Below are positions 3,715 to 26,011 of a DNA stretch of 26,011 bases, in pieces (position 1 is the first letter of the stretch; each line of letters starts with the position of its first letter). The notes beneath the pieces were generated by a model. The model was not told the origin of the DNA and made no database searches. It worked only from the letters and a program-made list of their open reading frames with translations. This DNA is from a virus. Both the position numbers and the translations under genes were made by a program. The stretch covers positions 1-26,011 of IMG/VR virus record IMGVR_UViG_3300010331_000036. The stretch is one strand, 5' to 3'.

Positions 3715-3728
3715 CGGAGGTATAAATT

Positions 3729-5210: not shown

Positions 5211-5222
5211 AGGAGGTGCTGT

Positions 5223-8200: not shown

Positions 8201-9665
8201 GTCTAAATCCGAGGGGTTTGTGAGAGTCGGAGACACGATGTTTCACAAGGGCGAGTTTGCCTATAAGAACCCACCAGATTTTAAAGCTAAGCCACAACTC
8301 AACTACAAACAGCGAATGAAAGCTGACGCTAGTTTTGCAAAGGGTTTAGATGACTTCTTGAAGAATTCCACAGAGCCCCCTAGAGCTGGAGAGACACCAT
8401 ACAAGTACAACCAAAGGCTGTCACGGCAGTACGCTAGAGAGAACTCCGCAGTCCCTATGCAACCTCACGAGAGCATACGTGCTGTAGACCCCGAAACGGG
8501 TTCTGTGGGAAACTACTCGAAAGAGTTTAACTCAGAGCAGAGTATCAGAGAGGGTATCATAGGGGGTAAAGGTATAAGTACCATAACACTTGGTAACAAC
8601 ACCTATACTCACATAGAACTGCTAAACCATTTCAGAGACTTAGGCTTAGGCTGGTCGGGTGTTAGTAAGGGAAATCTGATACAGAATTCTTCAAGTACCA
8701 TCAGAAATGAAGTAGCTGGGCAAGTAGGAAATCCTGTACTTAACGCTGTAGCCAATATGGGCGATGGCGTAGAGACACTCACAAGGCTTTCCCACTTCAT
8801 AGACAAGCTCGACCAGGGCTTTGGACTAGAAGAGGCAGCGAGTGCCGTTAGAGCGTATCACGTCGATTACAGGGACTTGACGCTACCAGAACGTAACGTG
8901 TTCAGAAGATTAGCTCCCTATTACACATATATGAGGAAAAATCTTCCAATACAGGTAAAAAATGTGTATACTAATCTTGGTAAAGTAAATATGGTATCAG
9001 AGCTAGTTAGGTCGTCTTATGACGCTATTGAGGTAAACAACAATGGCAATGCTCCCGTCACTGACGACTATCTAAAAGAGGGACTCGCTATTCCACTAGG
9101 GATAGACCCACAAGGTAATGTCCAGTATCTTAACTGGAACTTGCCTATTATAGACATAGGACGTTTACGCCTTGACTTAGGAGAGTCCTTTGATATGAAC
9201 ATATTAGAGATGTTACACCCAGCGATAAAGGCGGCGTTTGAAATACCCGCTAACACGTCGTTAGGATTTAACCAGCCAATCGAACAATTCCAGGGTCAAG
9301 AGACTCCCCTCTTACCAGGAACAGATACGTTTGGTATCCCAAAGGTCGCCAACTACTTTATACAACAACTAGGTGTTGCAGAAAGTGCGAGGAAGATGCT
9401 AGGAACTGGGTACAACGCCCTCACAGGGGCAGAGCCAGACCCAATGAAACCTACTCAGATGCCGTTGTTCCAGAGTCTTGTACCAGTGAAAAACCAGTAT
9501 AACACGCTGAATAACCAAGCATACCAGTATCGAGACCAACTGCAAGAGTACGTGAATTACCTTGAACAAGAGGGACTACCCGTACCATCAATGGCAGAGC
9601 TTGAAAAGATGCAGTATACCCCAGGGGGTAGAAAGCCGAAATACAGTGCATACACGCCTAGATAG
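5223..9665 (+). CDS. Giant virion protein (1480 aa), possible DNA-ejection/internal protein
   Basis: ATG 5223 is preceded by GAGGAGG, 12 bases after the previous stop. At 1480 aa it is the largest gene in the window. Residues about 155-200 hold a Gly/Ala-rich amphipathic stretch (LGADIVVDPLSWVSFGALGLG). Most of 200-900 is charged and helical. Near residue 957 is LNPAFILRNAIGEPAMNFF and near 1213 DYRDLTLPERNVFRRLAPYY followed by TYMRKNLP. I remember such Arg/aromatic segments from large polyvalent or internal proteins of many uncultured phages, but I cannot name the family with certainty. The C-terminus is Pro/Gln-rich. No lysozyme, transglycosylase or polymerase catalytic motif was found by eye. 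Its place just before the lysis genes and after virion genes supports a structural, possibly ejected, protein. A very long tape measure is a less likely alternative because strong coiled-coil periodicity is not evident. Confidence 0.6.
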   Translation: MAQFDYQKYNGYTPQQKMPKPPKYSLAGQGYKLPTASNPLIPMNNPYKSIENYKTRLTGVGAPVPERDADGDGGLLNGVLRVLQMTGSASTNVIHDVVKGIQTPGKQNTLGSLGKSYVDSFTGKRQDTMTDVFDTMGWKADENPDGKWYKPWTWDGSNTIRNIATLGADIVVDPLSWVSFGALGLGKNVAKGVTKEALGKLATTQTGHIDDIATAIAKEFDTADFVLEPAKVLAQAMKVTKDKDQAELLMRTAYSLTKTSKATDLKTLEYLMDKGFNGLNEDIINNFAKSSSKSQEGIITGFDGMSELTKAIKSRSGSLSSALGKGLSGATGGANLYSAIKGAKSLDEFDTMVGGVKGVLEGLNKNTGWDLIPDWKAGMTKPEFELAKDEVRTMQLKRIYPNMDDAQIGTKLLDKTLDIRELDVLESLYAGFKSMDSTKLEILSKDIISFRYGKKAPKLDDARVASVLQRFDSERGLRSQVKELGDGIEFANGLQRAYDASKGRFFFRYHNPFNNKVLPIVELTNVAKNPAMKKAGEVAFGLPGIRQGRDILGYIFQPEYMGKKSKLVRTRNDALMKVDSDVKSAKITPEKAIAKRAEINDKFDYAIDARNDFAKKMSKYLHLETAIPYKTAESATNIFWDETHTLDKAFLKSETLMKGVSYYRQRNNSDASRVGWELLRGRELEDVLDEVMGTDDALELIDDSMLELAEASREILRQAFSDPKMQKFIKNNQVKDAEMEIIERASGKVTMYFGALKDFDETRGTIFSNVEQSDKSKGVFGFGVDSDKPIKNIVTPENYVHAVYKNTDRDTMKISSMDKSDVDNIKTNTSQQSFSADEKQIESMFDARIYGKEPVDNIIMSMALRNTESLRVDLNRRLVADIQNAIRLEPGFSSLINTKMMYGATPIKIGKDEFFAMPEVVNQLNRIVDTFSTNLGVAQLVSYMDNVTNAMKRLQTSLNPAFILRNAIGEPAMNFFDGVKAISWSKAVEVLTGSKSEGFVRVGDTMFHKGEFAYKNPPDFKAKPQLNYKQRMKADASFAKGLDDFLKNSTEPPRAGETPYKYNQRLSRQYARENSAVPMQPHESIRAVDPETGSVGNYSKEFNSEQSIREGIIGGKGISTITLGNNTYTHIELLNHFRDLGLGWSGVSKGNLIQNSSSTIRNEVAGQVGNPVLNAVANMGDGVETLTRLSHFIDKLDQGFGLEEAASAVRAYHVDYRDLTLPERNVFRRLAPYYTYMRKNLPIQVKNVYTNLGKVNMVSELVRSSYDAIEVNNNGNAPVTDDYLKEGLAIPLGIDPQGNVQYLNWNLPIIDIGRLRLDLGESFDMNILEMLHPAIKAAFEIPANTSLGFNQPIEQFQGQETPLLPGTDTFGIPKVANYFIQQLGVAESARKMLGTGYNALTGAEPDPMKPTQMPLFQSLVPVKNQYNTLNNQAYQYRDQLQEYVNYLEQEGLPVPSMAELEKMQYTPGGRKPKYSAYTPR

Positions 9666-9687
9666 CAAATAAGGGAGGACAAAAACT

Positions 9688-9759
9688 ATGACAAGAACGT
9701 TATTAACAACAGAAAGGGTGGTGGCTTTATGCAAGACTGCACAATGGAAATGCAACTAA
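9688..9759 (+). CDS. Possible 23-codon leader peptide before the lysis genes
   Basis: A GGGAGG at 9673-9678 is followed ten bases later by ATG 9688 and an open frame of 23 codons (MTRTLLTTERVVALCKTAQW plus KCN) ending at TAA 9759. It overlaps the first 31 bases of the XhlA-like gene in another frame. Its ribosome site is better than that of the XhlA-like gene, so ribosomes may load here and be handed on. It may instead be non-functional; nothing in the peptide is recognisable. Confidence 0.35.
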   Translation: MTRTLLTTERVVALCKTAQWKCN

Positions 9760-10154
9760 AACATACCGAGCTTTTAGCCACCTTAGCGACAGATATGGAC
9801 AATATGAAAAGGACTCTAAGCAACCTTGACGCTATAAAAGACACCCTTACAGAACTAAAAGTGCTTAACGTACAAGGTATGGAGTTTAACAAGAGACAGA
9901 TTACGTCTAACGAGGAGGTTAAAACAACCTTATCTGCTATAGATAAGAACTTATCCGCCTTAAATGACAGAGTCGGGTTAATTGAAAAGACCGATGTTCA
10001 ACAAGACCTGGCTGTAAGAGACGAGAAAAAAGAAGTTAATCGAGTATTTGTGGAACGGTATAAGGCAAATATGACATTTTGGGGAGTAATCGTGAGCTGT
10101 TGCGTATCCCTAATCAGCTTGTTTGTAGCCTTTGCTTTAAGAGGAGGGGTCTAA
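9729..10154 (+). CDS. XhlA-like lysis-associated membrane protein
   Basis: It encodes 141 aa. Residues 1-115 are charged and predicted coiled coil (MKRTLSNLDAIKDTLTELKV, LSAIDKNLSALNDRVGLIEK). One C-terminal membrane helix follows (MTFWGVIVSCCVSLISLFVA) with a short tail. This order matches the XhlA/hemolysin-type family that works beside the holin XhlB in Bacillus PBSX-like lysis cassettes. The next two genes are a holin and an amidase, which supports the call. ATG 9729 has a GGGTGGTGG just before it; the frame is open upstream to 9666 but has no ATG, GTG or TTG there. The stop overlaps the holin start by one base (TAATG), so the two are translationally coupled. Confidence 0.75.
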   Translation: MQDCTMEMQLKHTELLATLATDMDNMKRTLSNLDAIKDTLTELKVLNVQGMEFNKRQITSNEEVKTTLSAIDKNLSALNDRVGLIEKTDVQQDLAVRDEKKEVNRVFVERYKANMTFWGVIVSCCVSLISLFVAFALRGGV

Positions 10155-10378
10155 TGAATAAAATATCAAGAGGAACAATCATAAGAACCGTTGTACTAGC
10201 CCTTGCGTTAGTCAACCAGCTATTAGTAAGCTTTGGGTATGCCCCGTTTCCAGTTGGTAGCGAGGAATTAACCGAGATACTGTCGACCATCTTCACGTTG
10301 GTAACAGCTATCATAGCCTGGTGGAAGAATAACTCTTTCACGCAAAAGGCTATCGAGGCAGACGCTACATTCAAATAA
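10154..10378 (+). CDS. Phage holin, SPP1/XhlB-like
   Basis: It encodes 74 aa: MNKISRGTIIRTVVLALALV, then a first membrane helix, a short loop (FPVGSEELTEI), a second hydrophobic segment (LSTIFTLVTAIIAWWKNN), and a charged tail. The opening ISRGTIIRT, the order helix-loop-helix and the AWWKNNSFT ending match the SPP1-type holin family (XhlB). Holins form lesions in the cytoplasmic membrane that set lysis timing and let the endolysin reach the wall. ATG 10154 has GAGGAGGGG upstream and overlaps the XhlA-like stop by one base. The frame extends back to 10079, but that part lies inside the XhlA-like gene. This is the best host-group clue in the window. Confidence 0.9.
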   Translation: MNKISRGTIIRTVVLALALVNQLLVSFGYAPFPVGSEELTEILSTIFTLVTAIIAWWKNNSFTQKAIEADATFK

Positions 10379-10396
10379 CAGAAAGGGGGAGTTACT

Positions 10397-11668
10397 ATGC
10401 TAGGATATACCATTACAGCGTCGGATTTATCCGTGTCTGTGTGTGGGGGAAGCAAGAGCTCCCCCTTAGTTTTATCAGCCAATCCGTACAGCATTACCAC
10501 AAAGAAGCCCATAGGATTTATGGCAGTAAGCGGAGACGTTTATAATACCATTCCAGAGGGTCTTCCTGTGCTGATGGTTTACAAAGACGGTGGGGTAGAA
10601 ATCACAGAGGACTATAATATGCTTGATGTAGCAGACGCTCGATTTGTCGTGTCTGGAAGTGCTATGCTTATCCGTAATCGAGAAAAGTGTGAAATCGGCT
10701 CTACGCTCAATATACGCCCTCAGACGGCTATGCCACGTATGGGTGTCGGGCATCTTATGACGGGAGAATTACTGTTTCTCGTTTTAGAGGACGGCACAGC
10801 CGAAGATTTACAGAGAGCATTTGGATTTTATAGAGTATATGATGCGATGATGCTAAGTTATGCAGACATATATGTTCAAGACAACATAGGAGGAATTACT
10901 ATGGGAACACAACCTATTACAGTGCTAGAAGCAAAGAAATTTAAGAGCTTACCACACCCAATTATCGTGATAGATATTGGACACGGGGGAGCTGACCCAG
11001 GAGCAATAGGATTAGGCAAGAAAGAAAAGGACGTCAATCTAAAGATGGGGATGGCGATGCGGGAATTCCTGGTTAGAAATTATGAGGGCACGTTCTTAGT
11101 CACAAGGTCGGATGACAGCACGCTGTCACTCAAGGAGCGTACGGATATGGCAAAGGCAGTCGGGGCAGACTTCGTCTTCTCCAGCCACGTCAATGCCTTT
11201 AATATACCCGAAGCAAATGGGTATGAGTCTTGGATATTCACAACGCCAAGAGGTAACTCCGCAGAGGTTAGAAACGCTGTGCACGACGAGGTTATGGCGT
11301 TCTTAGCCCCTTATGGTATTACCGATAGAGGACGTAAGAAAGGTAATCTGCATATGGTACGAGAGCCTATCAACTCTATGCTTGTGGAGAACTTGTTCAT
11401 TACCAATCCAGGCAATAACAAGCTGTTATCTGACACCAACTTCGTGATGAAGCTGGCAGACGTTACAGCAAAAGGACTCGCCAAAGGGTTAAAGCTCAAG
11501 ACAAAGCTTACCACAGTACCCTCGGAAGCGGTTCCTACGGCTGGGTGGGCGTTACAAACGGGGTTCTACACCTATAAAAAAGGTGCGTTAGATGAACAAG
11601 CACGTCTAAAGACGCTCGGTATCAACACGATACTGGTGCCCAAGACGGTAGCGGTAGTAAAGAAATAA
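10397..11668 (+). CDS. Endolysin: NAGPA-like domain + N-acetylmuramoyl-L-alanine amidase + short SPOR-like tail
   Basis: It encodes 423 aa from ATG 10397 with AAGGGGGAG upstream. Residues 1-165 look like a diverged phosphodiester-glycosidase (NAGPA-type) domain: VSGDVYNT, then LPVLMVYKDGG, RPQTAMPRMGVGHL, LLFLVLEDG and YDAMMLSYADIYV. The usual LDGGGS-like end is absent, so activity there is doubtful. Residues 187-365 are an Amidase_3 domain with zinc and catalytic residues in the expected places: H196 (DIGHGG), E210, H264 (SSHVNAF) and E331 (VENLF). The enzyme should cut the amide between muramic acid and L-alanine of peptidoglycan. Residues 383-416 resemble only the first half of a SPOR domain (GWALQTGFYTYKKGAL). 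A strong internal start lies at codon 169. The gene follows the holin by 18 bases and ends at a terminator. Confidence 0.85.
   Translation: MLGYTITASDLSVSVCGGSKSSPLVLSANPYSITTKKPIGFMAVSGDVYNTIPEGLPVLMVYKDGGVEITEDYNMLDVADARFVVSGSAMLIRNREKCEIGSTLNIRPQTAMPRMGVGHLMTGELLFLVLEDGTAEDLQRAFGFYRVYDAMMLSYADIYVQDNIGGITMGTQPITVLEAKKFKSLPHPIIVIDIGHGGADPGAIGLGKKEKDVNLKMGMAMREFLVRNYEGTFLVTRSDDSTLSLKERTDMAKAVGADFVFSSHVNAFNIPEANGYESWIFTTPRGNSAEVRNAVHDEVMAFLAPYGITDRGRKKGNLHMVREPINSMLVENLFITNPGNNKLLSDTNFVMKLADVTAKGLAKGLKLKTKLTTVPSEAVPTAGWALQTGFYTYKKGALDEQARLKTLGINTILVPKTVAVVKK
10887..10903 (+). promoter_or_regulatory. Internal ribosome binding site and in-frame ATG in the endolysin gene
   Basis: TAGGAGG at 10887-10893, a seven-base spacer and ATG 10901, in frame with the endolysin. 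Starting here would give a 255-aa product holding only the amidase and SPOR-like parts. The site resembles the gene's own start region (GGNGGANTTACTATG in both). Confidence 0.65.
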
Positions 11669-12049: not shown

Positions 12050-12514
12050 CTACAGCTCTATCTCGTCGTCTAAGTCCATAACAACGTCGATGTCTATGTC
12101 ATTATCGGGCTCTACTGCTTTAGCCGTTGCCTTAGTTGTAGTAGCTCCTACTGGGAATACTTTCTTGATATTGCTGTACTCTTTACCCTCAGACTCCTTT
12201 AGGAATACTTCGATACCAAGACTCTTACCTCTTAGAGCGTCTGGGTCAAATGTGATAGCTGACTTAGGAACAGTAACCCCAAGAGCGGTTAAGGTGTTTC
12301 TAAGGTTGAACAGTGCTGATGGCTTCAAGCTGGTAATGTGGTTGATGTGCAGACCTTTTGAGATATTCGACGTTATTACCAAGTCCCATTTAAGATAAGG
12401 GAACTCGCCCTGTCCAGGCTCTTTGGTTACGGATACTACTTTGGCTGTATGGTTTCCAACAGCTACTCCACCATTATCTTCTACTCCACTAAAATCTACG
12501 TTAATCTTACTCAT
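12050..12514 (-). CDS. DUF669-type protein, probable ssDNA-binding/recombination partner
   Basis: It encodes 154 aa. The opening MSKINVDFSGVEDNGGVAVG, the later segment FPYLKWDLVITSN and NLRNTLTALGV match the DUF669 pattern of phage proteins found beside Sak4/RecA-like ATPases and Cas4-like nucleases. The C-terminal 20 residues are strongly acidic (DNDIDIDVVMDLDDEIEL), like the protein-docking tail of bacterial SSB. I infer a ssDNA-binding role in replication or single-strand annealing. ATG 12514 has GGAAGAGG upstream. A small dyad lies at the upstream gene boundary. Neighbours on both sides (Sak4-like ATPase, VRR-NUC) fit a recombination cassette. Confidence 0.75.
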   Translation of the reverse strand: MSKINVDFSGVEDNGGVAVGNHTAKVVSVTKEPGQGEFPYLKWDLVITSNISKGLHINHITSLKPSALFNLRNTLTALGVTVPKSAITFDPDALRGKSLGIEVFLKESEGKEYSNIKKVFPVGATTTKATAKAVEPDNDIDIDVVMDLDDEIEL

Positions 12515-12529
12515 TTTGTACCTCTTCCT

Positions 12530-12542
12530 GTCCTATTAGGAC
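12530..12542 (-). repeat. Dyad just upstream of the DUF669-type gene
   Basis: Plus strand reads GTCCTATTAGGAC, a perfect 6-bp palindrome about one base. It sits between the Sak4-like stop and the ribosome site of the DUF669-type gene. A close relative lies at 13531-13542 before the Sak4-like gene. Confidence 0.45.
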
Positions 12543-13516
12543 TACTTAAATACTAAGTTATACAACTTATCTAAACTAGGGTTAGCGATTACACCACTTA
12601 GCTTTGTGGTTCTGTCTTTGGTTACGTACTTGGAATTAGGTAGAGCTGACATTCTGAATTGCATTCCCTTGTCTGTCTTAGCTATAGATAATCTTGCGAT
12701 TATATCAGCTTCGGATAGAACGTATTTACGCAATCCTTGATTTAGAGCTGGGTAGATACCGAATTCATCGGAGTCAACGTCTTCGGAGTTGCTACCCTCT
12801 TGGCATAACATTATACGCTGTACTGGTAGCTCCTCGAATTGCTGTAACCAAAACTTCATTTTCTCTCCCATATCGCCCCAATTCCTAAGCGTTTTCTTGA
12901 GTATGTCTTTGTCGGCGTCTTTGGCTTTCTCGCCTAATACGACGTTTCTCATACATACCTCAGCTAGTCTATCCACAGTATCAAAACCGATGGACTTAAC
13001 TAGGAATTTGCCCCCTTTAACTGGTATCTCGATGCCGAGTATCTTACCTGTTTTCTTGTCTTTTTTAATAGGGGATTGTGCCAATAACCAATATACTTGT
13101 TCAAGTTTTTCCCAAGTGTCAATCCTCAGCTTTTTAGCCTTGTCTTTCGACTTGTCCTTGATAGCTAGGGTGCCATCTTCCGATGCCAATACCAACATAC
13201 CCTCTGTCGTGCTTAACAACGTCGTTTTACCCGTACCATTTTTACCATAGATACACCAGGTTAAAAATTCTACGTTGTCGTCAATGTCGGTAATGAGGTC
13301 TGATATGTCACTACTTGGACTGACACTAGCCGTTCTTGGTTCAATGAATACATCGGGTGCTACTGTAAAGTCTGCCACAAACAAGTCCTCTTCAACGGGC
13401 TTAGTAGCGTTAAGCACTACTGCTTCAAAGTCGTCCTCGCTGTCTAGGTCAAGGCTGTCATTAAGTATGTCTAACTCAAATATGTCCTCAACCGCAACGT
13501 CTTTTTTACTCGCCAT
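12542..13516 (-). CDS. Sak4-like RecA-fold ATPase (AAA_24 type)
   Basis: It encodes 324 aa. Residues 1-82 are acidic and low in predicted structure. The Walker A loop is G91-KNGTGKTT, followed by a compact P-loop ATPase core (VLASEDGTL, then SIGFDTVDRLAEVCM as the Walker B region, D in FDTVD). Phage proteins of this form next to DUF669 and Cas4-like genes are Sak4-type recombinases, which pair single strands during recombination-dependent replication. The acidic N-terminal 80 residues are longer than the minimal family core as I know it and may be a docking arm. ATG 13516 has GAGGAG upstream, and the gene starts inside the last 11 bases of the nuclease gene. Confidence 0.75.
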   Translation of the reverse strand: MASKKDVAVEDIFELDILNDSLDLDSEDDFEAVVLNATKPVEEDLFVADFTVAPDVFIEPRTASVSPSSDISDLITDIDDNVEFLTWCIYGKNGTGKTTLLSTTEGMLVLASEDGTLAIKDKSKDKAKKLRIDTWEKLEQVYWLLAQSPIKKDKKTGKILGIEIPVKGGKFLVKSIGFDTVDRLAEVCMRNVVLGEKAKDADKDILKKTLRNWGDMGEKMKFWLQQFEELPVQRIMLCQEGSNSEDVDSDEFGIYPALNQGLRKYVLSEADIIARLSIAKTDKGMQFRMSALPNSKYVTKDRTTKLSGVIANPSLDKLYNLVFK

Positions 13517-15063: not shown

Positions 15064-17463
15064 TTATTTCGTTGGAATTTCAACGATTCTGCCGATTCCC
15101 CAAGCCGAGCCGAGCTCAACTTCTGCCACAAGGGGTACGTCTAAAGTAATGCCAAAATACTTAGTCAGTACCTTTGGTACGCTCTCCATACACTCTTTAA
15201 CGAGTAGAGCCACTTCCTCGCCTATGTCTTCATCACACTCAGCCATTATAGCGTCGTGTACTTGCCCGACTAAGCACGCTCTAGTATCTCCGTATAGCTT
15301 TTGTAGTTTACCGTCTATCAATATCATTGCCAACATTGTGATGTCGCTTGCAAAAGACTGAACAGGAGTGTTGATGGCTTGGCGTTCTGCACCGCTTCGC
15401 ACTTCGTTGTCGGGGCTATGAACGTTTGGTAGGTGCCTTATTCTACCAGTAGCCGTCTTTACATACCCAAGTCTTCTTACCTCTTTACGCTGTCTTTCGT
15501 GCCAGGGTAGTAGTCCAGGATACGTTGTAAAATAGGTGTCACGGGCTATTTTGGACTCTTCTTCCGTGAATATTGCCCCATAACTGTCAAATGCGTAATC
15601 TTTGAACCCTCGCTCCCCCATTCCGAAGAGGAACCCGAAGTTTACCGCTTTGGCATTACTCCTCTGTTGCTTGGTAACATCGGCTATGTTTACCTTTGCA
15701 ACGTTAGAGGCAGTTAGAGCGTGTAAGTCACGTCCCATTCGGTATGCCTCTTTCATCACGTCTTCCCCTGCAACGAAAGCCCCTATACGTAATTCGATTT
15801 GGGAATAGTCAGCTTCGATGAACACTCTGCCAGGCGGAGCGGATATGAGCTGTCTCACATTGGCGTCTCTTGGTACTTGCTGTAGGTTAGGGTCTTCGGC
15901 TGATAGTCTACCAGTAGCAGTCTTGGCTATGTTGTATGTGGTATGTAGCCGTCCATCACGCTTTAGGTATGCAACCCACGGAGTTAGGAACCCGTTAAGT
16001 GACTTCTCCAGTTTCTTGTACTTTAGCACCATCGCTGGCAGCGGACTGTAATCCGCAAGTCTCAAGAGCGTCGCCTTCCCCGTTGCGGGAGTCCCCGACG
16101 GTGTCACACTGATGATTGGCAGTTTTAACTTCTCGAAGAATAACTCGGCTAACTGCTTTGTGGAGTTGAGGTTCATCAGCGTCATATCCGTAGGAAGCAT
16201 CGCTCGGATATCCGCATCCAGTATCTCTTTGTCTTTGGTGTATTGCTTTGTCACACTCTCTAGCTCTTCCTGGTTTACATATATGCCCCTGTTCTCTATA
16301 CGCTGTAGCACACGTTCTCCGTGCATTATGATGTATTGGAACACCTTTGTAAGTCCTGGGTCTGCTAGTATATCTGCCTTAATTATGTGGTAGAGCTTCA
16401 ACGTGTAGTAACAGTCAAGAGCACAATACTTAGCCATAGCTTCAAACTCAGCTTTTGTGAGGTCTCCTTTAAACACTATCCCCTCGTCGTAATCCTCAGC
16501 ACCACAGTAAGTCTTGGCAAGCCACTTGAGTCCGTGAGGTGTGTTGACGTTGAGTAGATACGCTCCTAAGTAGGTGTCAAAGTCGATGTGCGGGTTAGGT
16601 ATACCCCTGTTTCGTAGCCATCTATTGTCAAATTTACCATAATGTGCCACTTTCTTAATCTTGTTTTTAGAGAGTATCTCATTTATCCTGGCATAATACT
16701 CAGCTACGGGTACGCTATTGTTTCTAAAATGCTCTGTTTCAAGTGGTATTATGTAAACCCCTTTCTCAGTAGCAATGCCCATCATATACAGCTTCTCGCC
16801 TTTCTTGTACGGGTCTAATCCTGTGCACTCGATGTCATACGCTATAACTTCCTCGCCCTGTAGATGCACGCACAGTTTCTCCAGCATTTCTAACGACTGT
16901 ATAATCTTGTACTTAAAATCACTAGGGTCAGCTTTCTTGCCCCACATCACTCGTGAGAAGTACGTCAAATCGGCTCGGAACTCGATTGCAAGGTGGGGCT
17001 GTCTTATAAAGGCACTAGGATTGTATGTGGATATTACCGTTATGCCTTTATAGTCAAAGACTTTCCCGTGATTGGTTCCAACGTTGGTCTTCCCCAGAAG
17101 CACCGCCAGAGACGCTGAACCCAGAGTAAGGATATACTTTGGGTTCACTATGCTAATCTCTTCTTCGAGTATCTCTCTACACGCCTTAATCGCCTTGCTG
17201 TTGGGTTTTTCGTTATGGGCGTTACACTTTATCGCTTTCGTAGTATAACACTGTGAGAGGTCAATTCCGACGTCGTAGAGCTCCCTGTATAATTGCTTGC
17301 TCGCCGTGTCGCAGAATAGCTCGCCCTGTATAATCTCGAACCCAGTAGGTATATCGCCTATTACCATTATGTCTGCTTGATATGGGTTTGTGGTAATGTG
17401 CTCGCTTATCTCTCTTGGACAGCCACTACATTGTCGATACAAGCTCTTCCACCCCCTCTGCAC
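15064..17463 (-). CDS. DNA polymerase, family A, with N-terminal UDG-like domain
   Basis: It encodes up to 799 aa. Residues 1-175 resemble an iron-sulfur uracil-DNA glycosylase (family 4/5): cysteines C12, C15, C80 and C95, VIGDIP, and TYNPSAFIRQP. The key H of the usual HPS motif is N and the GEAPG loop is changed, so glycosylase activity is doubtful. The 3'-5' exonuclease follows: D210/E212 (AYDIECTG), HYGKFD and CALD. Polymerase motifs: A, FIEADYSQIELRI (D552); B, RSNAKAVNFGFLFG (K605, F609); C, GQVHDAIM (H736, D737). This is the replicative polymerase. Start: GTG 17463 has no ribosome site, whereas TTG 17442 has AGAGGGGGTGG six bases upstream and may be the true start. The gene overlaps the 113-aa gene upstream. 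Confidence 0.95.
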   Translation of the reverse strand: MQRGWKSLYRQCSGCPREISEHITTNPYQADIMVIGDIPTGFEIIQGELFCDTASKQLYRELYDVGIDLSQCYTTKAIKCNAHNEKPNSKAIKACREILEEEISIVNPKYILTLGSASLAVLLGKTNVGTNHGKVFDYKGITVISTYNPSAFIRQPHLAIEFRADLTYFSRVMWGKKADPSDFKYKIIQSLEMLEKLCVHLQGEEVIAYDIECTGLDPYKKGEKLYMMGIATEKGVYIIPLETEHFRNNSVPVAEYYARINEILSKNKIKKVAHYGKFDNRWLRNRGIPNPHIDFDTYLGAYLLNVNTPHGLKWLAKTYCGAEDYDEGIVFKGDLTKAEFEAMAKYCALDCYYTLKLYHIIKADILADPGLTKVFQYIIMHGERVLQRIENRGIYVNQEELESVTKQYTKDKEILDADIRAMLPTDMTLMNLNSTKQLAELFFEKLKLPIISVTPSGTPATGKATLLRLADYSPLPAMVLKYKKLEKSLNGFLTPWVAYLKRDGRLHTTYNIAKTATGRLSAEDPNLQQVPRDANVRQLISAPPGRVFIEADYSQIELRIGAFVAGEDVMKEAYRMGRDLHALTASNVAKVNIADVTKQQRSNAKAVNFGFLFGMGERGFKDYAFDSYGAIFTEEESKIARDTYFTTYPGLLPWHERQRKEVRRLGYVKTATGRIRHLPNVHSPDNEVRSGAERQAINTPVQSFASDITMLAMILIDGKLQKLYGDTRACLVGQVHDAIMAECDEDIGEEVALLVKECMESVPKVLTKYFGITLDVPLVAEVELGSAWGIGRIVEIPTK

Positions 17464-18052: not shown

Positions 18053-19468
18053 CTAAATACTTCCTTTCAAAACTGCCTTATAGGCGTCAGATACAGAACT
18101 AGCGAAGTCTTCGTTGTTCTTTAACGTGTTAATCAGTTTCAAGTCTATTGATTTGTCTATAGCCAGGTAGTAATTCGTCACTACCTCACTCGTTTGGTTA
18201 CGCCCCATCACTCTATCTTTAGCCTGTAGATAATTCATCAAGCTAAAATCGAGAGAGTAAAAGACGTTGATATGAGCCGTGTCAAACGATACGCCCATAG
18301 CTCCCGTCGCAATTTGAACTACAATAGCGTCAAGTTTTCCCGCCTGGAAATCTTTTCTAACCTTGAGCCGTTCATCTTCGGGAACCGAGCCGTTGTAATA
18401 ACCGACGTTGAATTTCCTAAGTACGTGTTGGAGCAATACCGCCTCTGCCTTGAACCGATGGAATATTACCATCTTCTCATTACCACATTGCTTTGTGGTT
18501 AATAGGTCTCGCAATACCTCTGCTTTTGCACTACTTATCTGCTCAACGACGCCCTCACTTGACGTTGCAAATCCTCCACAGAACTGCTGGAGTCTCATAA
18601 GCCTTGTAACTGCAAGGTCTCCCTCGACTACTGCACCAGAGTTAAGCTCAGTTACCCACGTCTTTTTCAGCTCGTCGTACCTCTTCTGAGCTGATGGCTC
18701 GAATGGGATTTTGAGTATAATCTCCTCTATTTCGGGCTCTTTCATTACCGACTTCCTCAGCACTCTTACCGAGTGGTCTTTCACGATTGCTTTAATATCG
18801 TCAATGTCGGTACACCCAACTACTTGCTTGTTCATATAGCCACCCATTATAGCGTACTTCTCACGGAATGCTACCCATCTACTACCGAATATTTCGGGGT
18901 TCATCACTTTAAACTGGCTGAATATGTCCGTCCAACTCTTCGTGATTGGGGTTCCCGTAAGCAAAAGCACCATATCCTTATTTTTAGTAATAGATGCTGA
19001 TGCCTTAGAACGTTTGCTATTGTGGTGTTTGACTAAGTGGCTCTCGTCGAAGATTACAATGTCGGCGTCCCACCAGAGAATACGTTCTCTCTGGGTTGTC
19101 AGCTTGTCATAATTGACAACCAGGAATACGAGCGGTGCTATAGGTTTCTTAGTGCATTTAAGTAGCTCATTAATCTTCATATCTTTATCGGGATACATAA
19201 ACACCAATCTAGGTATCTCGTCGGGTAAGTGGTCGTCTACTTGAGCTTCCCACTCACTCCGCACTGATAATGGACACACTATTAAAACCTTTCTAGCGTT
19301 CTTCTTGAAGTAGTTTACCCCACAGAAGTCTATTGCCACTTTTGTTTTACCTACACGCTGTTGAAAGAAGATGCCATACTTACCTTGCTTTAAGGCACTC
19401 TTTAGGGCGTAAGTCTGTTCAACGGTAGGCGTTGTCTTATACTTGTACGTCCTCTTTGCTGTCGTCAT
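18053..19468 (-). CDS. SNF2-family DNA helicase/translocase
   Basis: It encodes 471 aa. Motifs in order: VEQ near residue 18; GIFFQQRVGKTKVA (Walker A, G40-K41-T42); VLIVCPLSV; DESH at 141-144; LLLTGTP at 170-174; KMVIFHRFKAEAV; QIATGAMGVSFDTAHINVFY; and QAKDRVMGRNQT. The order and the QAKDR..R pattern are those of SNF2/DEAD helicases. At 471 aa it is a compact phage version without a separate HIRAN or SNF2-associated domain. Such proteins are usual in phage replication blocks and probably move along duplex or forked DNA and help strip proteins or restart forks. ATG 19468 lies inside the last 32 bases of the primase-helicase gene and is the only ATG upstream of the first helicase motif. Confidence 0.9.
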   Translation of the reverse strand: MTTAKRTYKYKTTPTVEQTYALKSALKQGKYGIFFQQRVGKTKVAIDFCGVNYFKKNARKVLIVCPLSVRSEWEAQVDDHLPDEIPRLVFMYPDKDMKINELLKCTKKPIAPLVFLVVNYDKLTTQRERILWWDADIVIFDESHLVKHHNSKRSKASASITKNKDMVLLLTGTPITKSWTDIFSQFKVMNPEIFGSRWVAFREKYAIMGGYMNKQVVGCTDIDDIKAIVKDHSVRVLRKSVMKEPEIEEIILKIPFEPSAQKRYDELKKTWVTELNSGAVVEGDLAVTRLMRLQQFCGGFATSSEGVVEQISSAKAEVLRDLLTTKQCGNEKMVIFHRFKAEAVLLQHVLRKFNVGYYNGSVPEDERLKVRKDFQAGKLDAIVVQIATGAMGVSFDTAHINVFYSLDFSLMNYLQAKDRVMGRNQTSEVVTNYYLAIDKSIDLKLINTLKNNEDFASSVSDAYKAVLKGSI

Positions 19469-21371
19469 CTTTATCCACGAACCTTTCTTTCAAGCTATAC
19501 AGCGTCTTGCCACCTTTGTTACCACCTTTTCTCTCTAGCAAGTCTGCTGTTTCAAGTGTTTTAAGTGTTTCTACTAGCTCTCTTCTCGTCATACTTACAA
19601 GCGTTCTCATTTCCTCAAAGCTACGATGTGATGTGGCTAACAAGTTAATGATTTGCTCTTGCTTCGCATCGGTTCCTTTTGTATCGTCCGTCTGCTCCAT
19701 ACTTATCCTGTAATAAAGCTCTCCTGGAGCCCCCATATCCACCCTCATAGTTAATTCTTCCATACTTGGGTAGGCTCTGAACTCACGCTCTATCTTCACG
19801 GTGTTAGGCTCTGCTGTCGATTTGATGTATAATGCCGACTCTACCCAAGCGTGAAATGCCGATGAACCTCTTACACGTTGTCCACCTCTTGCACTCGAAC
19901 CGCCTTTGTTATAATGGTGGCATATCATTAATGCGACGCCATACTCATTTCTTATGTAGGTCAGCCATCTTAGAATGTCGCCAACCTCTTTGGCACTATT
20001 CTCGTCCACTTGTCCTAGCATCATATACAGTGGGTCTAAGATGATAAGAACGGGCTTTAGCTTGATTATGGTGGCTTCAATCAGCTCTCTGCTATCCTTT
20101 GTGGTTAAGTCTACACCGTAGTTATTGGAGAAATACAAGGGTAAATCGTCTGCCAATGCCCAACCACAAGGAGTTGCGGTTAACATACCTTTTGCATACG
20201 CTGTCTTGAATATCCTGTCCTGTACCGTTTGAGCGTTGTTTTCCTCTTGGATATACAACACGGCTCCCGATATACCTATTGGGAACTGCCCAACGTAAGG
20301 ACGTCCTGTCGCTACTGATAAGGCTATGTCCGTTGCTTGAACTGACTTGTACGTCTTAGGCTCTCCAGCAATCATTCCGTACGTTCCACTTTGCCAGATG
20401 CCCTCCACAAGCCACTTTGGAGCTTCTATTCTTGTGGAAACGAACGTATCGAACGGTATAGCCCACATATCTTTTCGTATGCGGTCTTCTACTGGAGATA
20501 ATACTTTCTTTTCTTCTTCAACTCTTGTCTTAACGTGCTTATCCGCTTTCATTACCTCGTGATAGATTTGCTCGGCTTCATTACGTCTGCCCTTAAACTT
20601 GTTCCAGGCACACATCAATATCACGTCTACTATGTCCATCAAAGGCACTCCCGACTCTATGAGTGATGTCTCTATCTCCCACAATCTATCGGAACGTTCT
20701 CCTTGTTCTACCTCTTCGGGCTTAGTCAAGAGTAAGTCTCGTGTTCTTGGTGGTATTGTCCACTCTGAAAGAACCATTTCAATAACGTTCTTTGTACTAG
20801 AGCCCTCGACGCTCTCCGTAGCCACTACCTGCTCTTGCACTTTCTCAAGCACATAAGAGTTTTTCTCAGCCCATAGGAACGTGCCTTGTTGCGGTGGGTC
20901 ATACTTGAAATTAGGACTTCCAGGTACTCTTAGCACTTGGGTTACGTCCCAACCACCCTTATCAGCTCCTATGTGGTAGGTTAAATCTTTATTCACTTGC
21001 TCTACAACATCAATATCGTGTTTGCTATCAAGAGACCATAAGCATTGATAACGGTTTTCCGAGGATGCCCACGCTATAGAGGGTCTTAAATTTCCTAAAT
21101 CTTTAGGGTCGACTTCGTCCAAGTCCGCCCACAGAATACCTTGTTCTCGTTTGGCGTTCTCCTTGAGTCTCTTGGGCTTATCGAAGACCATAGGACACCA
21201 ATAAGTATCCCAATCGTCGTCTGCTGACTTGATAATGCGGGATTGAATAGCAACCCAATCGGCTGGATACTCAAACGCTCTACCCTCGTCCCATACTTTA
21301 CCCTTACGTCTAGGAACAAATACATAACCCTCTTGTGTGTTCCAAACTGCTTTTAGAACATTCAATTTCAT
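19437..21371 (-). CDS. Primase-helicase: AEP/RepB-type primase fused to RepA-like AAA_25 helicase
   Basis: It encodes 644 aa. The N-terminal third is an archaeo-eukaryotic-type (RepB-like) primase: ILWADLDEVD gives D83/D85, then SSENRYQCLW near 103-112 and GGWDVTQVLRVPGSPNFK at 139-156 (D142). The middle is a RecA-fold helicase: Walker A G336-EPKTYKS, VLYIQEE, Walker B VLIILDPLY (D446), and MICHHYNKGGSSARGGQRVR near 482-500. A winged-helix-like C-terminus (about 566-630) ends in a charged tail. It should both prime and unwind at the fork, as in other phages with no separate DnaG or DnaB. ATG 21371 has GGGAGG upstream, and the gene follows a ribbon-helix-helix gene by 15 bases. Confidence 0.85.
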   Translation of the reverse strand: MKLNVLKAVWNTQEGYVFVPRRKGKVWDEGRAFEYPADWVAIQSRIIKSADDDWDTYWCPMVFDKPKRLKENAKREQGILWADLDEVDPKDLGNLRPSIAWASSENRYQCLWSLDSKHDIDVVEQVNKDLTYHIGADKGGWDVTQVLRVPGSPNFKYDPPQQGTFLWAEKNSYVLEKVQEQVVATESVEGSSTKNVIEMVLSEWTIPPRTRDLLLTKPEEVEQGERSDRLWEIETSLIESGVPLMDIVDVILMCAWNKFKGRRNEAEQIYHEVMKADKHVKTRVEEEKKVLSPVEDRIRKDMWAIPFDTFVSTRIEAPKWLVEGIWQSGTYGMIAGEPKTYKSVQATDIALSVATGRPYVGQFPIGISGAVLYIQEENNAQTVQDRIFKTAYAKGMLTATPCGWALADDLPLYFSNNYGVDLTTKDSRELIEATIIKLKPVLIILDPLYMMLGQVDENSAKEVGDILRWLTYIRNEYGVALMICHHYNKGGSSARGGQRVRGSSAFHAWVESALYIKSTAEPNTVKIEREFRAYPSMEELTMRVDMGAPGELYYRISMEQTDDTKGTDAKQEQIINLLATSHRSFEEMRTLVSMTRRELVETLKTLETADLLERKGGNKGGKTLYSLKERFVDKDDDSKEDVQV

Positions 21372-21769: not shown

Positions 21770-21804
21770 AGTATACAAGGGGTTGAACACACTGTCAACC
21801 CCTT
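21770..21804 (-). promoter_or_regulatory. Strong sigma-A promoter with a perfect inverted repeat (operator)
   Basis: On the minus strand TTGACA (21793-21798) and TATACT (21770-21775) are 17 bases apart. AAGGGGTTGA and TCAACCCCTT (21777-21786 and 21795-21804) form a perfect 10-bp inverted repeat with an eight-base centre that covers the -35 box and most of the spacer. A protein bound there would block the polymerase. No T-run follows the repeat on the minus strand, so it is not a terminator for the vWA gene. Confidence 0.85.
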
Positions 21805-21815
21805 ATTTGTCACTA

Positions 21816-23912
21816 TTACTCGAAAGTCTTTGCAATTTGTTGTTTTATGTATTTTGCTACGACAGGAACCATAGTGCCTGGTGTGTTAATGTTCGCAAAG
21901 TCCTTGCCAAAACACAGTTGTTCACACTTTAAGGCTCTAGGGTCTTTATAGTCAGTAGCGTAAACCCCCATCAAGGCGACACCCTTTTTTCTAATGTCTC
22001 TAATAGCTTCCGCAGTATCATCTAAGCCGTCTTTTCCGTTGAACAGATAGTTGAGGGGTTTTGACTTGTCTATCACTCCATATTCGTCGTGTTGGTTTTC
22101 ATAGCTATTAGACCCACCAGCACTACGAATAAGGTGGCTTGAACCACTTGGCTGTCCGTCAGAGAAGCATATCATTATGTGGTTAAGGCTAGGGTCTTTA
22201 TCAGATAATTCATATACCGAACGGTAAGCCAACCCGTCTCTGTTCGCTCCATCGGCATTGTACCCAAGCACGTCTTCGGTCTTTTTCATAGGGTCGTGAT
22301 AGTCTCTCATACGCTCTAGCACCGTACCGCCCTTATAAGTTCTAAAAGACACGACTCTGATTGGAATACCTACTAGATTAAATGCTTTTGCGATTACATA
22401 ACACGCTTGTCCTACCATTATTTGTTGCCCCGAATTGGAACCACTAGCGTCAACTACCAGGTCAACTATGAACCCGCCCTCTTCGGTCTGTTCCTTTTGT
22501 GTAAACACGTGAGGATTGTCGCAATGAGTGGCTTTCCATATCTTGTTAGGTTTAATGTGTCCTATTGTTGAGGTAGAGAAGCTTTCCGTGTCTCTTGCAG
22601 TAAGGCTTGTCCTTATCTCGTTTGCTAACTGGAGTGCTTGTCTATCCAGTCTCTTAATTGATGCCATATTGTAGCTTTTACAACTTTTTTGTCCGCTAGA
22701 AGTCCTATTTAGTGTCTCGGATATATCAGTGTAGTGAACTAACGCTCCTTTGTTCATCCCTACCCCTACAGCGTCCTCTAAACGTTGTGCTTCGATAGGT
22801 GTTAATATGGGTTTTCCGTAGACTTTAATACATTCTTTACGTGCATCTTCACGGTTTCTAGTGCTTGTATCCTCAGTAATCGCTAAAGCCTTTGCATTAT
22901 CTATCGCCTTTTTAACTTTTCCATCAACCTCAGTATCCACAAGTTTATCGAGTGAGCTTTTTTCCATACTTTTCTTTATCATTTCCGTAAGCTCTTTTTC
23001 CGTAAGCTCTTTGGTTACAGCGTCATTACACTCATTTTCCTTATCAGCATCACTCTCGGAGTCACTATCGTCATCATTATCAGAGTCACTATCCTCGTTA
23101 TCCTCACTATCGTCAGTATCATTACTATCAGCGTCGTTACTGTCCTCGTCGCCACCTTTTTCCTTGCTATCGTTCTCCTTGCTTTCAGCGTTAGGGGCTT
23201 TAGTGCCTGTGCTATCTCCGTCTCCCTCTCCACCATCTTCCTCGTTAAGGTCTGGATTAGGATTTTTGCTCTTGGACTCACTAGGGTCTGGTAAGCCATA
23301 GTATTTAATATACATATTAGCGGCGATGTCGGCACTTTCTTTGGAGCTTGTTGCCTTTGTGGAACGTTGCATTATCTCAGTTGCCATAGCCCGTACTCTA
23401 GTCCAATCAACTGCTTTATCCCACCCGGGATACTTGGATAAGTCCAACCCGTAAGGCAAACAGCCAAGTGCTTTTGTCTCCACAAACAACTTATCGGCGG
23501 TCTTAGGAAACTCCGAAAACACACCAGATAACACTTTTAGCGAGCGTTCACTCAAATCTTTGTAGCCGGGTCTATGGCGTGCTATCTCTGTATCAATACG
23601 ATAGTCCTCAACAATCTGCATAAGGTCATTTGCTTGGGCAAGGTCGGCTCCTAACGTCTGCATCTTCTTCATATAGTCCGTCATATCTTCCATCTTAGAG
23701 TAGTTAAGGTGCCCTGCTTCGTGTGCACTAGCAGAAAGCTGAAGGTCCATAATGTCTTTTGGGCTCATACCGATTTGCTCTAACACGCTGTCACTATGGA
23801 TTGAAACGTTCTTAGTGTCGGTACAGGAGTTTTCTCCCCCCTCTACCTTGAAGTCATACCGTCCAGTTACGGTGTACGCCATATTGGCGACACGGTTTTG
23901 ATTTTTTAACAT
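21816..23912 (-). CDS. vWA-domain protein with HEAGH metallopeptidase-like region (CobT-like)
   Basis: It encodes 698 aa. Near the N-terminus is SASAHEAGHLNY (HEAGH at 64-68) and then VEDYRID (101-107), which may supply the third metal ligand. A long acidic, Ser/Asp-rich linker covers about 210-295 (DSDSDNDDDSDSESDAD). The vWA domain (about 480-690) has the metal-ion site DASGS (D488, S490, S492) and FSDGQPSG (D585). CobT-like vWA proteins work with MoxR/CobS-type AAA+ ATPases, and the ATPase gene lies just upstream. The phage pair is known from other genomes, but its substrate is not known to me. ATG 23912 has GGGGGTG upstream; an ATG ten codons later lacks a ribosome site. Confidence 0.8.
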   Translation of the reverse strand: MLKNQNRVANMAYTVTGRYDFKVEGGENSCTDTKNVSIHSDSVLEQIGMSPKDIMDLQLSASAHEAGHLNYSKMEDMTDYMKKMQTLGADLAQANDLMQIVEDYRIDTEIARHRPGYKDLSERSLKVLSGVFSEFPKTADKLFVETKALGCLPYGLDLSKYPGWDKAVDWTRVRAMATEIMQRSTKATSSKESADIAANMYIKYYGLPDPSESKSKNPNPDLNEEDGGEGDGDSTGTKAPNAESKENDSKEKGGDEDSNDADSNDTDDSEDNEDSDSDNDDDSDSESDADKENECNDAVTKELTEKELTEMIKKSMEKSSLDKLVDTEVDGKVKKAIDNAKALAITEDTSTRNREDARKECIKVYGKPILTPIEAQRLEDAVGVGMNKGALVHYTDISETLNRTSSGQKSCKSYNMASIKRLDRQALQLANEIRTSLTARDTESFSTSTIGHIKPNKIWKATHCDNPHVFTQKEQTEEGGFIVDLVVDASGSNSGQQIMVGQACYVIAKAFNLVGIPIRVVSFRTYKGGTVLERMRDYHDPMKKTEDVLGYNADGANRDGLAYRSVYELSDKDPSLNHIMICFSDGQPSGSSHLIRSAGGSNSYENQHDEYGVIDKSKPLNYLFNGKDGLDDTAEAIRDIRKKGVALMGVYATDYKDPRALKCEQLCFGKDFANINTPGTMVPVVAKYIKQQIAKTFE

Positions 23913-23924
23913 ATATTACACCCC

Positions 23925-25436
23925 CTAAAATGTTACTGAGATAGAACCTGGTAGACTGAATAAGTCTAGGCTAGTCCAACTCTTTGGTATTAACGTGTTT
24001 ACTACGTCTCTAACAAGTGTTTTCTCGTATTCATCAAAGGCTTTGTTGATGATACACACTTCGACAGCTTCATAAGGACTAACGTTCCCTACCTCAACTA
24101 TCTCAATAGCGTCCTGTATTCCTCGTAAGTCCACTGATTTTGTGGATATTTCGGAGCTCTTTGCCTTAGCTTGTAAGTCGCAGAATAACTGTGCAAAATA
24201 ACCAAGTGTTGATGCATTAGCACTAGGATACATCGCTTGTAAATGCTTGAGCAGACTTGCTTTCGGCATACTCGTAACGTGTATTACCACAAACCTTGAG
24301 ACAAGAGCCTCGTTTAACTCACGAGTACCAGCATATCCCGAATTCATCGTTCCAATAAAGCGGGTAGCTTGGTTAAGGTTAAGACGCTGATAACCAGGAA
24401 CATCAAGGACTCTTCTACGGTCAGTTATACTGTGCAATACTGCAAGAGCATCGGCTTTTGCCATATTGATTTCGTCTAGGACACCAAAACCACCAAACTT
24501 AGCTACGTTATAAACACTACCAGGTCTAAACTCAACTTGTCCGTCTCGGAATGTTTCTCCACCGATAAGAGACTCGGCGTTTGTGTTAGTATGACAGGAT
24601 ATATCCCATATTGGTCTACCAAACAAATAAGCAAGACATTCAGCAAACACGTTCTTACCAGTCGCTTTATCGCCCTCTAACAAGATGTTCTTACCAGCTA
24701 ATATAGCCGATATTGCCAAGCTCCATTCTTTTCCCACATACCAACTGTTAGGCTTATTAATACGTTCTAGCAAGGAAGCTTCTCCACTATCGAGCTTGTT
24801 TTCATTTCTAAATTCCTGTATTTTCTTTATTAATGTGTCACTTACTCCCTGTTCATTAAGGAAGTGGGATAAGGTATTTTTCTTTGGATATGTTGTCATC
24901 TTCACGCTCTCTTTCTTTACTACGGGTGCAATAGTGTCTGCTACATAGGTTGCATTACTAAAAGTATGAGGCATTACAGTAGCCTTAGATGGTGTAGTGC
25001 TTGCTCCTATAATACCACCGCCACCGCCAGCATAAAAAGAACCGGTTATTGTACTACTACTACTAGGAAAGGAACCGCTCAGTATACTTTCTACTACACT
25101 AGCGTCCATACCAAGCATATCGGCGATTTCTTTAGAGGTACTTCCTATAGACGGAGTTTTAAGGTTTATTAACCCCGAGTCAGTACACGTTGTTACGTCA
25201 GAGCCTTTAATAGCAAGGCTTCCATAAACGTGGACTACTGTTGTTAGCACGCCAGGATACTGTTTAAAGTTTTTAACGCCATATTTGCTCCACTTACGCT
25301 CCTCGTTAAGCACTACCAGACCACCTTTGTCGTTTATGTACCCGAAGTAATAACTACCATTTATCAAAGCCGATGTGCTGTGCCCTTGATATAGCACGCT
25401 AAAGTGCCTTTTATCTAGTCTAAATCTCTTTTCCAT
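23925..25436 (-). CDS. MoxR/CobS-like AAA+ ATPase
   Basis: It encodes 503 aa. The first 180 residues are unusual and unrecognised, with a Ser/Gly-rich spacer at about 120-150. The ATPase core follows: Walker A EGDKATGKN (K261), RPIWDISCHTNTNAESLIGG, Walker B VLDEINMAKAD (D321/E322), sensor IGTMNSGYAGT (N365), and an arginine finger in EALVSRF (R381). This is the MoxR/CobS style of AAA+ protein, which remodels or loads metal into targets together with a vWA partner. The partner gene follows after 12 bases. ATG 25436 has GAGGAG upstream. The start of the protein may be a substrate adaptor. Confidence 0.85.
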   Translation of the reverse strand: MEKRFRLDKRHFSVLYQGHSTSALINGSYYFGYINDKGGLVVLNEERKWSKYGVKNFKQYPGVLTTVVHVYGSLAIKGSDVTTCTDSGLINLKTPSIGSTSKEIADMLGMDASVVESILSGSFPSSSSTITGSFYAGGGGGIIGASTTPSKATVMPHTFSNATYVADTIAPVVKKESVKMTTYPKKNTLSHFLNEQGVSDTLIKKIQEFRNENKLDSGEASLLERINKPNSWYVGKEWSLAISAILAGKNILLEGDKATGKNVFAECLAYLFGRPIWDISCHTNTNAESLIGGETFRDGQVEFRPGSVYNVAKFGGFGVLDEINMAKADALAVLHSITDRRRVLDVPGYQRLNLNQATRFIGTMNSGYAGTRELNEALVSRFVVIHVTSMPKASLLKHLQAMYPSANASTLGYFAQLFCDLQAKAKSSEISTKSVDLRGIQDAIEIVEVGNVSPYEAVEVCIINKAFDEYEKTLVRDVVNTLIPKSWTSLDLFSLPGSISVTF

Positions 25437-25450
25437 TGTGGTTCTCCTCT

Positions 25451-25774
25451 CTATTTCAAACTATCTAAGTATTCCTGTATACTAATTTGGTTTTCGTGCA
25501 TTTGCTTCGTCTTAGCAAGAACATCAGAAAGTCCTGTTGTTGTAACATCAACAAGGTCTTGTAATTCTTTATTAATTCTTAACTGACGTGCTAAGCGACG
25601 TCTTAAAGTCTTATTTTCTTCTAGTAAATCAGTGACTTTATCTCCATAATAACTCATGCTTAATCCCCTTTCTATACACTTAACTTGTTTAGTACACACT
25701 TTACACATAGACTCTAGTGGATTATGTTTACCAAAACAACTACCAGCTAATTCCCTAAACACCTTATATTTCAT
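25451..25774 (-). CDS. Cys-cluster and coiled-coil protein (107 aa)
   Basis: ATG 25774 has GAGGTG upstream; the GTG at 25783 overlaps that ribosome site and is not used. Residues 13-33 hold four cysteines (SCFGKHNPLESMCKVCTK, then KC), as C13, C24, C27 and C33, a likely zinc or Fe-S site. Residues 45-100 are a charged coiled coil (DKVTDLLEENKTLRRRLARQ). No family is recognised. An internal start at 25657 could give the coiled coil alone. It is the first gene of the operon with the MoxR and vWA genes, so it may be their small partner, which is inference. Confidence 0.7.
   Translation of the reverse strand: MKYKVFRELAGSCFGKHNPLESMCKVCTKQVKCIERGLSMSYYGDKVTDLLEENKTLRRRLARQLRINKELQDLVDVTTTGLSDVLAKTKQMHENQISIQEYLDSLK
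25655..25672 (-). promoter_or_regulatory. Internal ribosome site and in-frame start in the Cys/coiled-coil gene
   Basis: GAAAGGGG (25665-25672 on the minus strand) is seven bases before an in-frame ATG at 25657. This would give a 68-aa product with the coiled coil but without the cysteines. Confidence 0.45.
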
Positions 25775-25928
25775 ATATAACACCTCACTTTCTTTTTCGT
25801 GGTTTCAGCGAACCTTTCCTGTTACATATAAGGCTTGGTCGAGCCATTCAGCAATGCAACTGTGCTTTCATACACCTAGCGTATGAATACTTCAATACTA
25901 TAAAATTAACTTGTTTCAAAGTGTTGGG

Positions 25929-26007: not shown

Positions 26008-26011
26008 CTAT

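Follow-up and report, generated by a model that had tools for sequence, protein, structure and literature searches.

The window analysed here is the whole of a 26,011-base viral record (IMGVR_UViG_3300010331_000036), in which virion and lysis genes (2-11668) lie on one strand and a replication module on the other. The subject of this report is a MoxR-vWA gene pair within that module. Three open reading frames (ORFs) named in a preliminary description of this DNA were located, all on the minus strand, at 21816-23912, 23925-25436 and 25451-25783; the first two form the pair, with the following features.

21816-23912, minus strand: vWA (CobT-like) protein of 698 residues, with a helical N-terminal domain, an acidic linker and a C-terminal vWA domain (ORF; CobT_C match at 7e-8; AlphaFold2 model)
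23709-23723, minus strand: HEAGH, residues 64-68, in predicted helix 51-71; H64, E65 and H68 invariant in 16 mobile-element homologues
23592-23609, minus strand: EDYRID, residues 102-107, in predicted helix 91-113; D103 proposed as third metal ligand and D107 as second shell (model and alignments)
23013-23297, minus strand: acidic, repetitive linker, residues about 206-300, predicted disordered (predicted local distance difference test, pLDDT, below 50 at 210-302); short tandem repeats
22437-22451, minus strand: MIDAS motif DASGS, residues 488-492; D488, S490 and S492 invariant in 17 sequences
23925-25436, minus strand: MoxR-type AAA+ ATPase of 503 residues (AAA_5 at 8e-23; phrog_249; fold matches)
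24651-24674, minus strand: Walker A motif GDKATGKN, residues 255-262; K261 and N262 invariant
25257-25409, minus strand: small five-strand beta barrel, SH3-like by appearance, ATPase residues 10-60 (model strands 12-16, 29-34, 40-43, 49-52 and 57-59; pLDDT about 75-80)
24876-25256, minus strand: disordered ATPase linker, residues 61-187, ahead of the AAA core (pLDDT below 50)

An AAA_5/MoxR ATPase with Walker A and Walker B motifs is thus encoded beside a vWA protein with a MIDAS motif. Pfam matches to AAA_5 (8.4e-23) and to CobT_C (residues 469-536 of the vWA protein), together with the fold models, bear out the pairing proposed in the preliminary description, and the PHROG assignment of the ATPase is phrog_249, 'porphyrin biosynthesis'. 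The best folds for the ATPase model were CbbQ2 (3e-17) and NorQ (3e-17). Among solved structures, the vWA domain of NorD was closest to the vWA model (Z score 22.3, 265 residues aligned, root mean square deviation 4.2), and the MIDAS domain of Rea1/MDN1 was also matched (Z score about 20). When the full vWA model was run through Foldseek and VIA, every match was to a vWA domain and none to the N-terminal domain. Because the models match CbbQ/NorQ and NorD, the pair is likely a remodelling machine of the NorQD kind. NorQ and NorD form a ring-vWA complex in which a finger in the pore couples the ring to the vWA subunit; NorD has an N-terminal domain and a disordered linker, and NorQD has been proposed to stretch the linker between that domain and the vWA domain (PMC13036017). 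Both subunits (9qh6, 9qhd) resemble the window models, and the vWA proteins share the layout of N-terminal domain, disordered linker and C-terminal vWA domain, but NorD works in the insertion of iron into nitric oxide reductase.

The acidic linker and the Walker A lysine, K261, were both described correctly beforehand. The first 180 residues of the ATPase, described beforehand as unrecognised, comprise the small barrel and a disordered tail and no large unknown domain. The barrel is conserved in two related phage contigs, L023 and L024, each of about 44.5 kb.

The HEAGH and EDYRID pattern of the vWA N-terminal domain was likewise present as first reported, and HExxH with D103 proved general among mobile-element relatives. 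HExxH arises in about 1.3% of shuffles of the vWA protein and is weak evidence by itself. Chance is no credible source of the motif, since 16 diverse phage and plasmid vWA partners, when aligned, show no change at H64, E65, H68 or D103 and always have an acid at residue 107. In the AlphaFold model, the HEAGH helix (51-71) and the later D103 helix (91-113) have pLDDT values of about 80-90. Furthermore, D103 was found in 16 of 16 homologues with HExxH vs 3 of 14 without it (Fisher 7e-6, with related sequences counted as independent), while E102 occurred in 12 of the 16 HExxH proteins and in all 14 chromosomal relatives without the motif. Given this covariation, D103, accompanied by the acid at 107, is preferred over E102 as candidate for the third ligand. 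The site had been called gluzincin-type; the metal motif stands, while a glutamate as third ligand, and with it the term gluzincin, is not established. The glutamate of HExxH is not a metal ligand in zincins. Invariance of E65 therefore favours catalysis over mere metal binding, and the N-terminal domain may hold a divalent-metal, zinc-protease-like site that would confer protease activity on the vWA protein. No match to PF13203 (DUF2201 putative metallopeptidase) was found within the window.

The motif recurs with variation, as HEGAH and EDYRVD in L023 and as HEGGH and EDCRID in L024. HExxH is also present in the vWA partners of ICP2, S-ShM2 (where it is annotated 'peptidase'), Klebsiella pJN2-26, Cyrano, T5S1, DalanDe, Cantare, BS162P1, Sixama and N4 (gp25), as well as in Bacillota plasmids and one IncHI2 plasmid; the T5S1 CobT has HEAGH at residue 64, as in the window phage. 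A DNA-level search of phages with the pair gave no match, and a profile scan (alignment A3) of viral contigs recovered only the same three phages. On the IncHI2 plasmid (L069, 76-4693) a MoxR gene, a DUF3150 gene and a vWA gene with HEAGH are followed by a toprim protein; no DUF3150 gene was found in the window phage. Two Bacillota plasmid HExxH vWA proteins (L027, L028) adjoin group II intron reverse transcriptases, and in L028 the intron gene lies just upstream of a MoxR-like fragment. The pair appears to be fused in a faecal scaffold (L003, 264-2897, plus strand), where one open frame of 878 residues encodes the MoxR ATPase together with the vWA domain.

Loci with ATPases 42-54% identical to that of the window were checked on chromosomes of Clostridia, Acidaminococcus, Olsenella and spirochaetes, and none of the 17 vWA partners found there had an N-terminal HExxH (the start of L048 may be cut). 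The clostridial and spirochaetal pairs (L031-L046, and L025 of Acetoanaerobium) contain the closest ATPases, share the gene order and keep E102 and R114, but lack HExxH, have mostly lost D103, and show neither a comparably long acidic linker nor, in the aligned ATPases, the barrel. Relatives were detected in 9 of 398 Bacillota genomes, and eight of the nine were without HExxH. The sole HExxH copy (G255, L083) stands in a row of MoxR, vWA (HEAGH, IIEDARVE), PD-(D/E)XK exonuclease and CHC2 primase genes, which looks like a mobile-element replication cassette. Four faecal records (MT839881, MT837820, MT836279 and MT838859) considered as nearest phage relatives were rejected, since they resemble the clostridial chromosomal type and their vWA protein lacks HExxH.

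Replication genes lie beside the pair in the window phage, L023 and L024, and polymerase, primase, helicase, clamp or clamp-loader genes lie near it in ICP2, S-ShM2, pJN2-26, Cantare, BS162P1, T5S1, DalanDe, Cyrano and two plasmids, in agreement with the link to replication first suggested. These neighbours include DNA polymerase III in Klebsiella pJN2-26 and Cyrano, a clamp and clamp loader in S-ShM2, and primases on the plasmids. Around the isolate-phage pairs, the stretches retrieved contain no annotated virion gene, although many genes there are hypothetical. The remaining features of the locus are given below.

19437-21371, minus strand: RepB-type primase/AAA_25 helicase, a downstream neighbour in a gene order shared with L023 and L024 (domain and PHROG matches)
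21770-21798, minus strand: sigma-70-like promoter (11/12) that closely follows the vWA stop codon and precedes the replication genes (promoter sequence)
25451-25783, minus strand: third ORF of the gene row, 110 residues long, with a predicted coiled coil and cysteines C16, C27, C30 and C36 (ORF listing)
26010-26011, minus strand: extended -10 promoter (TTGACA-N17-TATAAT, 12/12), with its downstream end here and the remainder outside the window, at 5399-5427 of L009 (promoter sequence)

Contig L009 is near-identical to the window (99.97% over 3,667 nucleotides) and extends beyond its edge. There, the sigma-70 extended -10 promoter, matching at 12/12 positions, stands immediately upstream of the third ORF and thus of all three genes. 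The genes of the pair are probably early ones. The row had been termed the first early operon, which holds only in part: a promoter does lie directly upstream, but L009 has further same-direction genes beyond it. The order ATPase, vWA, primase-helicase is kept in L023 and L024, with other small ORFs between.

The third ORF does contain the four clustered cysteines originally listed, and its earlier end at 25774 corresponds to an ATG three codons inside a GTG-started ORF. As a conserved third partner it was rejected, because it had no relative among 50,697 phage records, even at an E value of 1, and no counterpart at L023 or L024. A protein of 235 residues encoded upstream of the window (L009, 4658-5365, plus strand) has no family match. 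With about 30% conservation and a position ahead of the ATPase in both L023 and L024, it is a stronger candidate than the Cys/coiled-coil ORF for such a third partner. No VMAP/iSTAND third component was found in the Pfam and PADLOC scans made, in which the VMAP models themselves were not run. In L024, an ORF of 266 residues consisting of many Cys-rich repeats (SDCRGCIGCID...; 12085-12885, plus strand) adjoins the primase of that related phage.

Elsewhere in the window, a family A DNA polymerase with an N-terminal fusion to a family 4 uracil-DNA glycosylase domain is encoded at 15064-17463 (minus strand). The fusion looks common, as 80% or more of this protein is matched by at least 1,086 phage records. 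For an ORF of 1,480 residues in the virion module (5223-9665, plus strand), PHROGs gave no match at E 0.01.

Earlier work has described phage cobST as well as MoxR-vWA pairs of phages that carry an N-terminal metallopeptidase, and the window pair adds one more. In one study, pairs of jumbo phages (group 2.2) are described with an N-terminal metallopeptidase and a proposed role in virion assembly (Iyer and colleagues 2021, PMC7824862). Like these, the window pair has a MoxR ATPase beside a vWA domain fused to a metallopeptidase-like N-terminal domain, here bearing HExxH; it differs in belonging to a small phage (relatives about 44.5 kb), in its replication context and in the SH3-like barrel on the ATPase. 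Viral cobST is widespread, and cyanophage cobT is said to be wrongly annotated 'peptidase' (PMC8651126). The viral cobST proteins (ICP2 gp41/gp42, Cobavirinae, cyanophage 'peptidase'/cobS) share with the window pair HExxH, D103, the acid at 107, the acidic linker, the CobT_C vWA domain and the adjacent AAA_5 ATPase, but are only 13-21% identical to the window vWA protein in the aligned N-terminal region, and the gene order is vWA-ATPase in ICP2 and cyanophages vs ATPase-vWA in the window phage. Among T4-like cyanophages cobS is a core gene (PMC3037559), whose function in phages was still termed uncertain in 2024 (PMC11288001). MoxR-vWA pairs are also known from a haloarchaeal virus (PMC7911831) and from IncP-7/IncH plasmids and SXT-type elements (PMC2642839). 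Literature searches for N4-like and early-gene MoxR/vWA proteins gave no result.

Several functions were weighed for the pair. A role as cobaltochelatase subunits, in which viral CobS/CobT would borrow host CobN, insert cobalt and raise B12 for nucleotide synthesis, has been published for viral cobST (PMC8651126) and agrees with the CobT_C and phrog_249 matches and with the shared pairing of a CobT_C-family vWA protein and a MoxR-type ATPase in canonical CobT/CobS. The window vWA protein, however, scored 22.8 and 24.8 bits against the TIGR01651 CobT equivalog, far below its cut-off of 759 bits, and in a profile comparison with the N-terminus of a true CobT only the EDxRIE region aligned (E 0.009, probability 5%). 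True CobT (Sphingomonas) has HDTALH and VETARIE, hence neither HExxH nor D103, so the phage form has a site absent from the chelatase subunit. Moreover, no CobN is encoded within the 26-kb fragment. Phages of E. coli such as Cyrano carry the pair, though this host is not known to synthesise B12 de novo. We consider the cobalt-inserting role very unlikely; of the two roles that the preliminary description names for known pairs, chelatase or remodelling chaperone, only the latter was supported. A metal-delivery chaperone, with HExxH-D as a loading site for inserting metal into a target enzyme as NorQD does with iron, would accord with the metal-insertion duties of many known MoxR-vWA machines (PMC13036017), but E65 is invariant despite not being a ligand in HExxH sites and the metal-inserting relative CobT lacks the site, which leaves this option doubtful.

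Virion assembly with a maturation peptidase is the role put forward for the jumbo-phage version, with reference to a MoxR-vWA pair that serves tail assembly in Acidianus two-tailed virus (PMC7824862). It fits poorly with a pair that shares strand and module with the replication genes and follows host-type promoters, and with the lack of annotated virion genes around the isolate-phage pairs noted above; it appears quite improbable. For this branch, three observations speak against both chelatase and virion assembly: D103 covaries with HExxH, neither chromosomal pairs nor CobT have the site, and the genetic context is one of replication. They are no proof of a protease. The same machine could instead be aimed early in infection at a host protein, as an anti-defence protease, consistent with its early position, its restriction to mobile elements and the occurrence of MoxR-vWA modules with peptidase parts in conflict systems (PMC7159879). 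No PADLOC family was matched, and the recurrent link to replication genes in relatives speaks against such a target, which seems unlikely. Finally, the N-terminal domain might bind metal for stability or otherwise act non-catalytically in a pure remodelling chaperone. Chromosomal relatives keep the corresponding region without HExxH, suggesting that the machine can work without catalysis, but strict conservation of the catalytic-type glutamate in all aligned mobile-element copies makes this explanation rather unlikely as well.

The preferred reading is that of a mobile-element MoxR-vWA motor, of a branch that mostly goes under the annotation CobS/CobT, with a metal-site N-terminal protease, acting on a target in setting up phage DNA replication, and we give it an even chance of being right as a whole. 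It builds directly on the gene pairing, the conservation and covariation of the motifs, the synteny with replication genes, the similarity of the models to NorQ/NorD and the promoter sequence. In the proposed mechanism, the pair would be made from host-type promoters along with the replication genes. The ATPase ring would associate with the vWA subunit and drive it, as NorQ drives NorD; the vWA domain would dock on the ring and bind the target through its MIDAS, and the disordered acidic linker would pass on the movement. The N-terminal helical domain would hold a divalent metal via H64, H68 and D103, with E65 as catalytic base, and would most likely cleave the target presented by the motor. 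That target would most likely be a protein, of phage or host, for setting up phage DNA replication. Several points weigh against this proposal. The N-terminal domain had no significant peptidase match in a profile search of solved structures (ACE, E 0.26; M32 carboxypeptidase, E 0.9), a profile comparison of HExxH-bearing with chromosomal HExxH-less N-terminal domains gave no decision (a second one, between alignments A5 and A8, is circular through shared sequences and was set aside), and the Fisher test on D103 takes related sequences as independent. The replication-gene neighbourhood, seen in most mobile-element pairs sampled, is suggestive rather than statistical, and Sixama and N4 have no adjacent replication genes.

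By extension, we tentatively put forward that most phage and plasmid 'cobST' may be an ATP-driven metalloprotease machine (HExxH...D-x3-[DE]) in mobile-element replication, rather than B12 auxiliary metabolic genes, and that chromosomal relatives and true CobT may have lost the metal site. The cobS and cobT genes are currently counted among phage auxiliary metabolic genes. Many cobS/cobT annotations, and the B12-related inferences drawn from them, would need revision should an intact metal site prove to be the mark of a protease machine tied to replication.

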